From Robertmurraya sp. FSL R5-0851 (lineage in GTDB: Bacteria; Bacillota; Bacilli; Bacillales; Cytobacillaceae): DNA of 64,000 bases. The notes below the pieces were generated by a model. That model saw only the letters and a list, made by a program, of their open reading frames with translations, did not search any database and was not told the DNA's origin. The position numbers and the translations under genes are program-made. Below, one piece after another: positions 17,242 to 53,071 of the stretch. The DNA is taken from the NCBI RefSeq assembly GCF_038002965.1, contig NZ_JBBOOE010000001.1, forward strand, positions 4,569,001 through 4,633,000. Direction: 5' to 3'. The first letter of the stretch is position 1, and the number at the start of each line of letters is the position of its first letter.

Positions 17242-17325
17242 TACCTTTCATCTCCTTTTGCCCTGAGTCGTTCGAAACAGAGTTATTCATACACACTTGG
17301 TGTAATGGAAAAACACACTGATGTT

Positions 17326-45607: not shown

Positions 45608-45630
45608 TTTGTTTCCTCCTCAAATTAAGA

Positions 45631-45703
45631 GGGGGTCAGTTTCATATCCGCCAGCTGGTGTTACTACGTAACAAAGGCTTCCTTCAGGCGGAAACTGCCC
45701 CCC
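45631..45703 (-). ncRNA. 73-nt structured element, member 3 (speE-speB gap)
   Basis: On the minus strand the ends GGGGG.CAGTTTC and GAAACTG.CCCCC pair, then CCGCC with GGCGG (ATAT bulge), then an inner hairpin TGTTAC-GTA-GTAACA. The plus-strand core GCTGGT [hairpin] AAGGCT..CTTC matches the cores of the elements at 50608 and 52728, and the length is identical. Strand and function are unproven. It is placed so as to lie in the speB leader. Confidence 0.7.
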
Positions 45704-45729
45704 ACAATCTAATTCTTTCACATTAAAAA

Positions 45730-45750
45730 ACGGAGGTAAGCTCCCCCCGT
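45730..45750 (-). terminator. Terminator of speE
   Basis: ACGGAGG-type and CTCC..CGT arms pair imperfectly, with TTTTTTAATG on the minus strand, 12 nt after the speE stop. Some read-through into speB is likely, since the two are usually one operon. Confidence 0.65.
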
Positions 45751-50407: not shown

Positions 50408-50593
50408 ATGCCATACGTAACTGTAAAAATGCTAGAAGGCCGTACTGACGACCAAAAGAAAGCTCTTGTGGAAAAAGTAACCGCTGCTGTCGTGGAAACA
50501 ACGGGAGCACCTGCTAAGAAAGTCGTTGTATTCATTGATGAAATGACGAAAAATAATTATGGGATTGCTGGAAAAAGGCTGTCTGACGAGTAA
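50408..50593 (+). CDS. ywhB: 4-oxalocrotonate tautomerase family enzyme YwhB
   Basis: 61 aa from the ATG at 50408 (AAGGAGG 9 nt upstream); a frame 16 codons longer is not used. After removal of Met the chain begins with the catalytic Pro1 (PYVTVKMLEGRTDDQKKALVEKVT). Arg residues for substrate binding are in place. These small hexameric enzymes interconvert keto and enol acids; the natural substrate is unknown. Divergent from ywhC. Confidence 0.95.
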   Translation: MPYVTVKMLEGRTDDQKKALVEKVTAAVVETTGAPAKKVVVFIDEMTKNNYGIAGKRLSDE

Positions 50594-50607
50594 AATTAGT
50601 TTTTGGG

Positions 50608-50680
50608 TGTCGGTTGTTATGCATTCTCTTCGCTGGTATTCCTATTGGAATACAGGCTCGATTCTGCATAACAACCGACA
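50608..50680. ncRNA. 73-nt structured element, member 1 (ywhB-ywgA gap)
   Basis: TGTCGGTTGTTATGCA (50608-50623) and TGCATAACAACCGACA (50665-50680) pair perfectly over 16 bp. Inside is a hairpin GTATTCC-TATT-GGAATAC flanked by TTCTCTTCGCTG and AGGCTCGATTC. The inner sequence is nearly the same as in member 2 although the outer stem differs. On the plus strand it is followed by ATATTTTTTAC and might end ywhB transcription. Confidence 0.8.
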
Positions 50681-50696
50681 ACATATTTTTTACAAA

Positions 50697-50727
50697 AGAG
50701 GCTTGGACATAAAAAGTCCAAGCCTCT
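50697..50727 (-). terminator. Terminator of ywgA
   Basis: AGAGGCTTGGAC and GTCCAAGCCTCT form a perfect 12-bp stem 3 nt after the ywgA stop, followed by TTTTGTA on the minus strand. Confidence 0.9.
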
Positions 50728-50730
50728 CTT

Positions 50731-51240
50731 TTATACAGGGACCACTTTCCCCTTTAATGCTTCAATATATTCATACGCCTGCTTAATTTCGTCTTCGGTG
50801 TATTTTTGCTTGCTCTTTAGAGTAAAGATTTTTTCCTTTACTTCCTCTACTTCTAAATCGTCAAAGAAAAGTACGGTTGATACGAGTTCTAGAAACCTAG
50901 CATTCTGGCTATTCATGTCGGTTAAACAATCCTCTAAAGCCGGAAGTTCCACTAGGTTCATATTTAAAAATTCCATACCCTCATCTGTTAAGGAGTAGCG
51001 GTACTGCATGTAACCGCCCTTTTTCTCCTTCACCTCGTTAAGAAAGCCCATATTGCATAGCTCTTCTACACGAAGGGTCAACTCTTCGGAGTAAGGTCCA
51101 TAAAAGTGAAACTGAAACCTCTCTTGGAAAGGAAAATCTACTTTTTTCGCTATATAAATCATTTTTTGCAGTTTTTTCCGACCAACAATTTCCCCTGCCG
51201 CTGCAAAAGCTTGCATTATTTTGGCATGATCCTTTAACAA
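50731..51240 (-). CDS. ywgA: YwgA family protein
   Basis: 169 aa. N-terminal winged-helix-like segment (HAKIMQAFAAAGEIVGRKKLQKMIYIAKKVDFPFQERFQFHFYGPYSEEL) followed by charged helices. The GRKKLQK..Y..K and FxFYGPYS pattern resembles the DUF4065/antitoxin-like fold, but no partner toxin is nearby. Function is unknown. It lies 42 nt after ywfO on the same strand. Confidence 0.85.
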   Translation of the reverse strand: MLKDHAKIMQAFAAAGEIVGRKKLQKMIYIAKKVDFPFQERFQFHFYGPYSEELTLRVEELCNMGFLNEVKEKKGGYMQYRYSLTDEGMEFLNMNLVELPALEDCLTDMNSQNARFLELVSTVLFFDDLEVEEVKEKIFTLKSKQKYTEDEIKQAYEYIEALKGKVVPV

Positions 51241-51282
51241 TGAGACCCTCTCCTACTTCTATATTTATATCAAGCACCTATC

Positions 51283-52581
51283 TCATAGGTCTAGTAAGTT
51301 GCGAATTTGCTTTTTAATGTTCTTTTTAGATGAATCGTCCTTTAAAAGATCTGCAGGGAAATACAACTTATGGTCTGTTCTTCTTTTCCCTGAAATGGCA
51401 TCAACGATCTGAGATTCTCTTGAAAGCTCTCTTACTTCTCCATTTTTCATAAGAAGTTGAATCGGCAGGCGCTCTTCTTCCTCACCTGGTCGATAAAAGT
51501 CGTATGGTAAGTCTGACGAGGAATCAACGACTAAATAATACTCCGGGTCAAGACCCGCCTTAGCAAATAAGGTAGAAAGCTCGCTTAGCTTCTTATATTC
51601 TTTCGCTGGGTCAAACTCCACATATTTAAACAAATTTCGATCCATAAAACGGACACACAGGTCACGCAAGATCAAATCCTCTTCCTCTTCCCACATTTGG
51701 AAGTAATAGAGAATAACGGCTTCATCTAATTTCAAATAGTCATAAAGGGTAATATTTTCAGCAAATACAGAATAAAAGTGAATCGGTTCGTGCTTAAATT
51801 GGTAGCCTTTTTGGTACAAATGCTTGGCACGGTGGAGAATCTTGGTCAAAATGACCTCTGCACTACGAGTAACGGGATGGAAGTACACCTGCCAATACAT
51901 TTGGTATCGACTCATGATGTAGTCTTCCACTGCATGCATACCACTTTGCTTGATCACGACTTGATCTTCTTTTGGCCGCATCACGCGTAGAATCCGTTCC
52001 ATATCAAAATGCCCATAGCTCACACCTGTAAAGTACGCATCACGCTGTAAATAATCCATACGATCCGCGTCAATCTGGCTAGAAATCAAGCTAATCACGA
52101 GCTTGTTCGGTGAGGTTTTGGCGATCACCTCAGCGACCATCTTCGGGAAATCCTTGCTTACCTTTGTAAGAACCCTATTTACTTCTGTGTTGCCAAGAAT
52201 AATCTTTTGTGTAAAAGCTTCATGATCGAGGTCGAATACTTTTTCAAACGAATGCGAAAAGGGACCATGTCCGAGGTCGTGAAGGAGTGCAGCACAAAGT
52301 GAAAGCAAACGCTGCTCACTGTTCCACTCCGGTCGTCCATCAAATACATCATCAATAATGCGACGAATGATTTCATAGACTCCGAGCGAATGGTTAAAAC
52401 GGCTATGCTCTGCCCCGTGAAATGTAAGATATGTCGTTCCAAGCTGCTTAATCCGGCGTAGACGTTGGAATTCCTTCGTACCAATCAAATCCCAAATCAC
52501 ACGGTCTCTCACATGTACATAACGATGAACGGGATCTTTAAAAACCTTTTCCTCCACTAGCTTTTCCTGTGAATATGCCAC
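51283..52581 (-). CDS. ywfO: HD-domain phosphohydrolase YwfO
   Basis: 432 aa. HD-superfamily (dGTPase/SAMHD1-like). Metal ligands are visible: GAEHSRFNHSLGVYEI, AALLHDLGHGPFSHSFE and SQIDADRMDYLQRDAYFTGV. B. subtilis YwfO acts on nucleoside triphosphates in vitro as I recall; the true substrate is not certain. ATG start after AAGAGGGAT. A 73-nt structured element lies about 147 nt upstream of its start. Confidence 0.92.
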   Translation of the reverse strand: MAYSQEKLVEEKVFKDPVHRYVHVRDRVIWDLIGTKEFQRLRRIKQLGTTYLTFHGAEHSRFNHSLGVYEIIRRIIDDVFDGRPEWNSEQRLLSLCAALLHDLGHGPFSHSFEKVFDLDHEAFTQKIILGNTEVNRVLTKVSKDFPKMVAEVIAKTSPNKLVISLISSQIDADRMDYLQRDAYFTGVSYGHFDMERILRVMRPKEDQVVIKQSGMHAVEDYIMSRYQMYWQVYFHPVTRSAEVILTKILHRAKHLYQKGYQFKHEPIHFYSVFAENITLYDYLKLDEAVILYYFQMWEEEEDLILRDLCVRFMDRNLFKYVEFDPAKEYKKLSELSTLFAKAGLDPEYYLVVDSSSDLPYDFYRPGEEEERLPIQLLMKNGEVRELSRESQIVDAISGKRRTDHKLYFPADLLKDDSSKKNIKKQIRNLLDL

Positions 52582-52727
52582 TGTAGAATCCCTCTTCCTA
52601 TCTATCTTTAAACTATTATAACTTGATTCATTCTACAATTCACCCTAAAAAAGGAAAAAATCTACAGAATTTCGACAAATTTAGAAGACAACATTCAACC
52701 TTTTTCTCCCCAACTCGGGTAGTAACA

Positions 52728-52800
52728 TGTCTGATGGGCTGCATTCTCTTCGCTGGTATTTCTATCGAAATAAAGGCTCGATTTTGCATCCCATCAGACA
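52728..52800. ncRNA. 73-nt structured element, member 2 (upstream of ywfO)
   Basis: TGTCTGATGGGCTGCA (52728-52743) and TGCATCCCATCAGACA (52785-52800) pair over 16 bp with one mismatch. The inner 41 nt match member 1 at about 34 positions. Its hairpin TATTTC-TATC-GAAATA shows a compensating change from TATTCC/GGAATA. Confidence 0.8.
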
Positions 52801-52816
52801 AATAATCAAAGAAAAA

Positions 52817-52845
52817 ACCACCTATCTTCCGTACCAATAGGTGAT
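52817..52845 (-). terminator. Terminator of the DUF1450 gene
   Basis: ACCACCTAT and ATAGGTGAT arms pair with one mismatch just after the stop, with TTTTTTC on the minus strand. Confidence 0.78.
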
Positions 52846-52846
52846 T

Positions 52847-53071
52847 TTATTTTTTCAGCTTCTTATTAATTTTATCCATTAATTCTTCTTCTGTTAGCGC
52901 AGCAAGGGGACGGTTATTCACGAATGCGAATGTTTTCTTTCTCCCTGGTCCGCAGTATGATTGGCAGCCAATTTCAATCGTTGCCTCAGGATCCATATCC
53001 TTTAGTCGAGGAATCAACGTTTTTAAATTTACGGCCTGACAATCGTCACACACACGAAATTCATTTGCCAT
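52847..53071 (-). CDS. DUF1450 family protein
   Basis: 74 aa. Cysteines in CDDCQAVN and [23 protein letters not shown] are conserved in DUF1450 (YuzB-like) proteins and suggest metal or iron-sulfur binding in a thioredoxin-like ferredoxin fold. Function unknown. ATG start after AAGGGTTGTAA. It stands alone between ywfO and the divergent rsfA. Confidence 0.85.

Follow-up and report, generated by a model that had tools for sequence, protein, structure and literature searches.

Two 73-nt hairpins, lying on either side of a gene pair resembling ywgA and ywfO in Robertmurraya sp. FSL R5-0851, share their unpaired core and differ in their stems, which raises the question of what kind of sequence they are and whether they belong to those genes. 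A first-pass annotation of the same DNA (a stretch of 64,000 nt, referred to here as the window) had read them as a selected structured RNA flanking the ywgA-ywfO pair. The reading at which we arrive, and to which we assign a probability of roughly 0.6, is that each is a copy of a structured, non-autonomous mobile repeat, dispersed and ~130 nt long, that is similar in kind to BOX.

Two Hairpins with Different Stems and Identical Cores

Both elements were present where they had been reported (Table 1), and the pairing of their outer stems, 16 of 16 bp in copy 1 and 15 of 16 in copy 2, was reproduced. The main hairpin (hp1) of copy 1 consists of a 16-bp outer stem, a kink-turn-like internal loop and a 7-bp inner hairpin; between the two copies the inner hairpin changes from CC/GG to TC/GA with pairing kept, and both unpaired stretches are identical. 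When folded as RNA, copy 1 gave -40.1 kcal/mol on the minus strand (z -11.6) and -38.6 on the plus strand (z -10.1), and copy 2 gave -32.6 (z -8.2) and -33.0 (z -7.1) respectively; in each of these four cases, none of 200 shuffles matched the native fold. Folded as DNA, copies 1 and 2 also beat their shuffles on either strand (z -6.1 to -10.1).

Three copies had been counted in the window. Two of them are strong matches to a covariance model described below (R2), and the third is a weak and divergent one, also matched by a smaller model, R1 (C1:4614627-4614708, E 0.048). It lies between the speE and agmatinase genes, immediately before the agmatinase ribosome-binding site. The divergent sub-type, seen also at loci L055, L241 and L244, keeps GCCTTTGTT..AACA(C)CAGC and has an altered adjacent loop, which in L055 and L244 could form a short helix (CGAG/CTCG and CAAG/CTTG); such a helix would remove the kink-turn there.

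Table 1. Features in the window (positions are those of the window; sense of the repeat is the minus strand)
Feature	Positions	Strand	Basis
Copy 1, main hairpin hp1 (site a)	50608..50680	minus (sense)	R2 match 50604-50685 minus, 80.3 bits
Copy 2, main hairpin hp1 (site c)	52728..52800	minus (sense)	R2 match 52724-52805 minus, 80.0 bits
Copy 3, divergent sub-type with GGGGG-type outer stem and GCCTTTGTT..AACACCAGC core	45626..45709	minus	R2 17.8 bits, E 0.05
Possible remnant of second domain (hp2 region), 3' of copy 2	52690..52727	minus	alignment of orthologues compared with consensus
Terminator-like hairpin and T-run behind ywgA-like gene, directly 5' of copy 1 (minus sense)	50694..50730	minus	by eye
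Terminator-like hairpin and T-run, directly 5' of copy 2 (minus sense)	52812..52848	minus	by eye
Terminator-like hairpin and TTTTTT behind speE, 5' of copy 3 (minus sense)	45725..45750	minus	by eye
ywgA-like gene, upstream neighbor of copy 1 (minus sense)	50731..51240	minus	name from first-pass annotation; NCBIfam match weak only
ywfO-like gene, downstream neighbor of copy 2 (minus sense)	51283..52581	minus	name from first-pass annotation; dGTPase-like below cut-off
L31-Firmicutes ribosomal protein leader	17252-17282	minus	Rfam RF03156, 37 bits
Transposase-like ORF, 479 aa	6377-7816	plus	IS6/IS66-like matches below cut-off

The Hairpins Belong to a Dispersed Family

Covariance models were built from 17 copies (R1) and from 61 copies (R2). 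The former are 17 of 18 oriented copies, the near-identical L006 having been omitted and the partial L013 and reverse-strand matches left unused, and the latter are 61 of 77 distinct copies, 16 having been omitted by hand (from G090, G100, G110, G106 and G077). A larger set of 115 copies, used for analyses of position, comprises all but one duplicate of 116 listed, and includes 62 of the 64 in one listing (without L120 and one reverse match) and 36 of the 48 in another (without duplicates, reverse matches and some weak ones). Reverse-strand matches, e.g., L005, represent the palindrome read backwards.

A DNA search gave five matches in the organism's own genome, one of which was such a reverse reading, and across 61 genomes it gave matches in five (own included), all of the same genus. 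R1 matched all five Robertmurraya genomes and 18 of 193 genomes of the family (own included), in five of its 25 genera. With R2, matches were obtained in seven of the 397 genomes sampled across the order (own included), adding the families f8, f17, f20 and f29 to f1, and in one of 398 sampled genomes of the class, this being the own genome. In a single genus, g17, eight of 36 genomes had 2, 4, 5, 9, 10, 11, 19 and 40 R2 matches, and the other 28 had none at E 0.001. Copy number thus ranges from zero, in most genomes, to 40 (G090); scans of more than 40 genomes used stricter filters and missed copies, G078 being absent from the family scan yet giving five matches in the g17 scan. The covariance search returned matches with covarying stems and the same core, and the stems were not all identical.

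The seven R2 matches in the own genome lie within 478 kb (C1:4143989-4621805) of a 4.76-Mb chromosome, i.e., in one tenth of it, an arrangement with a chance of ~7e-6 when calculated post hoc with neighboring copies treated as independent. This clustering may reflect local spread, and we have no other explanation at hand.

At gathering thresholds, no Rfam 15 family fell on the element in a search of the whole window, the sole match being the L31 leader elsewhere (Table 1). A permissive search (E up to 10) of positions 50500-50800 gave 15 matches, all sub-threshold; the one that spans the element, MIR825, scored 16.4 bits where its threshold is 160. On 11 element loci Rfam 15 gave only a T-box and an FMN riboswitch, both beside the element; the repeat itself matches no family in that release. 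With one g17 copy as query, blastn at E up to 0.01 did not find the element in plasmid and phage records, and of two pattern matches in viral contigs R2 scored one at 17.2 bits and did not match the second. A pattern scan yielded 21 matching stretches; those in Duganella, a proteobacterial MAG and Burkholderia (L250, L259 and L264) had no R2 match, and L260 was matched by R2 in part only, at 25.3 bits. In the open-licence full-text literature we found no paper recognizably describing this family. It is a real and apparently undescribed family of dispersed, strand-specific folded repeats.

Pairing Is Selected on the Minus Strand

In the alignment of 17 copies, 88.2% of cells in the proposed stems were paired, compared with 78.0% in shuffles, and 39 cells had changed on both sides, compared with 13.3 (neither value was reached by any of 500 shuffles). 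Two other measures were less discriminating, the number of pairs with a change on both sides being reached by 32 of 500 shuffles and the number of further pair types by 225. With 61 copies the structure formed in 84.4% of cells against 67.8% after shuffling, and both-sided changes numbered 277 against 89.6 (0/500); pairs with a both-sided change were 21 against 17.3 (12/500). Controls in which the structure was slid along the same 61 copies had at most 39.3% paired cells and 85 both-sided changes. Pairing was less well kept in the helix of the inner hairpin (74.2%), the length of which varies.

These results bear on the idea that the hairpins are chance palindromes, or bidirectional terminators of the ordinary kind. 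That idea would lead one to expect strong hairpins between genes, as are seen here, but the shuffles and the slid controls disfavor it, the unpaired core is conserved across five families, no consistent T-run lies directly behind hp1 (by eye), and separate terminators adjoin the element. We regard it as scarcely credible, and the earlier statement that these are neither plain terminators nor a recent duplication is borne out by stems that covary across genera around a fixed core.

An A-C mismatch on one strand of a palindrome is a G-U pair on the other, so that a comparison of the two reveals the strand on which selection for pairing acts. Read on the minus strand, the outer stems of the 61 copies contained 82 G-U and 17 A-C combinations; counted as distinct events of group, pair and type, the numbers were 46 and 14 (p = 4e-5), and copies found later gave 36 and 15 (p = 0.005). 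Selection on pairing is thereby placed on the minus strand, opposite to that read in the first-pass annotation. An early idea, that the rarity of G-U on the plus strand indicated a DNA hairpin, was dropped after the minus-strand count. Since the asymmetry could fit either RNA or single-stranded DNA, the description "selected structured RNA" holds as regards a selected single-stranded structure, and both RNA and folded single-stranded DNA fit it.

The Core Resembles a Kink-Turn

On the minus strand one side of the core loop has the sequence 5'-C-R-A-G-C-C and the opposite side 5'-A-G-C-G-M-A-G-W-G, which together suggest a kink-turn-like loop. In the position nomenclature of PMC5061560, 1b.1n is G.A in 59 of 61 copies (columns 29/63, A.G), so that a three-nucleotide bulge followed by G.A, as in standard kink-turns, is present; the three loop nucleotides are GAA or GCA in 54 copies, and 3b-3n is G-C in 58. 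At 2b.2n there is A.G in 19 copies and A.A in 20, the latter having a structural precedent described in PMC3985660, so that 39 of 61 agree at this position with the kink-turn RNAs described in these sources and in PMC4382518. By contrast, 22 of the 61 lack A at 2b, having U (20) or G (2), and the C helix has no more than 2 bp, followed by C.A (60/61) and mostly U.C mismatches. According to PMC4382518, kink-turns with a Watson-Crick 3b.3n pair are predicted to fold only when protein is present; the repeat shares that pair with protein-dependent kink-turns, and the G-C pair flanking its core accordingly predicts protein-dependent folding.

hp1 Lies within a Longer Unit

Besides the strand, the first-pass annotation had missed that hp1 forms one segment of a longer repeat unit. 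In g17, homology reaches past hp1 on both sides, and a DNA search with one g17 locus (query about 927-1059) gave a repeat length of ~133 nt. Read in sense, the g17 unit comprises a T-run, a short leader ..CTGTGTAAAAAC, hp1, TTTACATACTNGGTTG, a second hairpin (hp2) and ATGAATGTTTT, the full unit ending ..GAATGTTTT after hp2. The second hairpin is small, e.g., GAGC-AGAT-GCTC or, elsewhere, GATT..AATC, and is dissimilar to hp1. In a test on 41 chosen copies that included column pair 24/40, which is mostly unpaired, it was paired in 157 of 205 cells against 139.7 in shuffles (0/2000), and strand asymmetry was absent (G-U 13, A-C 18). Part of the unit is missing in many copies. Beside copy 2, the stretch in the hp2 region differs between species at the same site in the alignment of orthologues, and comparison with the consensus suggests that it is possibly a remnant of that domain (Table 1).

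In family f29 some units are arranged in tandem at a spacing of about 125-137 nt (L238 and L242 in G396, L232 in G346), and L086 (G090) has two units 128 nt apart, the second of them weak; a direct-repeat search at three loci found repeats in L238 and none in L236 or L239. Low-complexity tracts resembling TTGGTTAGTTGG lie upstream of units at L223, L228, L232, L236, L238 and L239 (G346 and G396). No terminal inverted repeats were seen in the alignment of the g17 unit. In one genome, G063, most copies (L128-L136) have longer outer inverted ends (TTTTTCGACATA / TAYGTCGATTTAAYAAG), unlike those of other genomes. No clear target duplication was seen in unit alignments, tandem arrays or orthologous sites. 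TTTT is found at both ends of the unit and could belong to the unit or to the target.

An element moved as single-stranded DNA by a Y1 (IS200/IS605-type) transposase could account for some of these features. Such elements carry a cleavage tetranucleotide and a guide next to a hairpin, and the g17 consensus has the layout TTTT-N6-AAAA-hairpin, in which TTTT would be the cleavage site and AAAA by hp1 the guide; unit junctions lie in TTTT within the tandem arrays, and G-T pairing in single-stranded DNA could produce the same preference for one strand. Nevertheless, hp1 is unlike hp2, the Y1 transposase domain PF01797 gave no match in G090, G110 or G095 (with 40, 11 and 2 copies), and it occurs in five of eight element-bearing g17 genomes compared with 18 of the other 28. 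We consider a Y1 element very doubtful.

Copies Lie in Sense, Often behind Terminators

All three copies in the window sit behind terminator-like hairpins (by eye), and the end of copy 1 lies close to a tautomerase gene. In a scan of the 115-copy set, a terminator-like hairpin with a T-run lay within 100 nt upstream in sense of 49 copies, and in 45 of these the T-run ended 17 nt or less from the start of the model; the remaining 66 copies had no such upstream terminator. In the same upstream stretch read antisense the count was 19, which is partly expected from bidirectional terminators, and a control stretch 60-160 nt downstream gave three in sense and five in antisense. With one copy counted per known orthologous site and ORFs called mechanically, 53 of 104 copies were in sense to both neighbors and 15 antisense to both (p = 4e-6). 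At locus L121 a T-box leader on the same strand immediately precedes the element. Replication-strand bias, examined by eye, is confounded with gene direction and was set aside.

Retro-insertion of an RNA by a group II intron reverse transcriptase would explain the sense orientation together with docking at the T-run of a terminator, and also why folding is favored on one strand. Group IIC introns prefer terminators. Against this, the group II maturase domain PF08388 gave no match in G090, G100, G078 or G095, which have 40, 19, 5 and 2 copies, and within g17 it was found in four of eight element-bearing genomes versus 16 of 28 others, so that we hold this route to be highly improbable.

Occupied and Empty Sites

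The supposed tie to the ywgA-ywfO pair gives way to a dispersed repeat, the neighbors being varied, the presence patchy and some orthologous sites without the element. The cleanest absence is at site e in G000, where a conserved neighboring box abuts the sequence beyond with nothing in between. In G003 (site d) and G001 (site c) the element is missing and other sequence is in its place, and it is missing at the L109 locus in G083, G099, G101 and G104 (flank identity 70-74%). The own genome lacks it at a site, beside a small phosphatase-like ORF, that is occupied in G001 and G004. The transposase-like ORF of the window lies near this empty site (Table 1). In G001, AT-rich repeats with units like AATCGCAAGTAAATTTT are found at about 3900-4300 of L156, at a site where G004 has the element.

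Other sites have been retained. Five Robertmurraya genomes have the element at site a, the match in G003 being weak, and four have it at each of sites c and d; at site c, paired changes have occurred in place in the stem (TCTGATGGG/CCCATCAGA versus TCGGTTGG/CCAACCGA). That orthologous copies keep their pairing while the letters of the stem change suggests local selection. Loci L016 and L089, from different genera, have the element at the same point, and L014, L021 and L125 share an intergenic region between genera; such correspondence suggests either long inheritance or hot spots. When g17 copies were compared between genomes, both flanks matched only for L094/L117.

An alternative is a structured RNA that benefits its host; it would be transcribed when the upstream terminator is read through, or within a 5' leader, would bind a protein of the L7Ae/YbxF kind and would affect the stability or expression of the RNA that carries it. 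The paired changes at fixed Robertmurraya sites, the excess of G-U over A-C on one strand, the prevailing sense orientation and the placing of the L121 element after a T-box leader are all in its favor, as is a kink-turn-like loop whose Watson-Crick 3b.3n pair, by the account in PMC4382518, goes with folding only in the presence of protein. However, no neighboring gene is common to the copies, 28 of 36 g17 species have no match, the element is missing at orthologous sites and 15 copies are antisense to both neighbors, while the departures at 2b and the short, mismatched C helix weaken the kink-turn itself. On balance we think a host function rather unlikely.

Comparison with Known Repeats

By analogy, the nearest kinds of repeat appear to be BOX, RUP and SPRITE of Streptococcus pneumoniae, as described in PMC3049150, and bcr1-bcr3 of the Bacillus cereus group, as described in PMC3446304 and PMC3733652. 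The former, judged likely parasitic by their authors, are likewise small and intergenic, with a predicted RNA fold, many copies and modular units (boxB in tandem); their turnover is slow, and one BOX copy is combined with T-box riboswitches (PMC3049150). Set against that description, the present repeat differs in having no visible terminal inverted repeats and a kink-turn-like core, in docking in sense behind terminators, and in being patchy over several families. The bcr repeats are similarly interspersed, intergenic and MITE-like, and often lie in UTRs, whereas bcr1 is characterized as confined to the B. cereus group, which sets it apart from the present repeat (PMC3446304, PMC3733652). Bhal-1 of Bacillus halodurans, listed in Table 3 of PMC2267715 as a 74-nt stem-loop family of 36 copies, is by that description nearly the length of hp1, intergenic and a stem-loop from a related host, and it could be the same family.

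Discussion

The repeat is dispersed and patchy, lies mainly in sense and frequently behind intrinsic terminators, is sometimes arranged in tandem and is absent from some orthologous sites; hp1 covaries, and one strand is favored. Being dispersed, structured, intergenic and modular, it has the features of BOX-like interspersed structured repeats. If it is a mobile repeat, the unit would spread in the form of its sense strand, folded and single, with roughly even odds for RNA and single-stranded DNA. Recognition in trans would keep the stems paired and the kink-turn-like core fixed, the T-run behind a terminator would be a preferred landing site, and any effects on adjoining genes would be incidental.

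Several observations count against mobility. A comparison of the ORFs around 60 loci identified no autonomous partner, the most widely shared set of related ORFs being found at six loci in five genomes at varied distances and on varied strands; the neighboring ORFs included no IS partner that would suit a MITE; and neither PF08388 nor PF01797 is found in the 40-copy genome. The g17 unit shows no inverted ends and no clear target duplication, corresponding places are occupied in different genera, pairing is kept at orthologous Robertmurraya sites, hp2 shows no strand asymmetry, and more than half of the copies scanned (66/115) are without an upstream terminator. We also considered integron attC sites, which have conserved R boxes in their stem; the stems here change wholly between genomes (by eye) and contain no conserved R boxes, and this candidate was rejected. 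A SINE-like version, in which an RNA of ~130 nt with a protein-dependent kink-turn would be bound by a kink-turn protein, copied into DNA and inserted in sense into terminator T-runs, giving tandem arrays, seems to us distinctly improbable.

Small structured repeats of bacteria have often been recognized by inverted ends that point to a transposase, and none are visible in the unit studied here. Its copies dock behind terminators in the sense orientation, and their kink-turn-like core has persisted through wholesale change of the stems. In palindromic repeats, a count of G-U against A-C offers an easy way to tell on which strand selection acts. Annotation of the family is desirable, since its copies might otherwise be mistaken for many separate RNA genes in relatives of Bacillus. 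If the kink-turn is real, it would connect a mobile element with a class of proteins that bind RNA.
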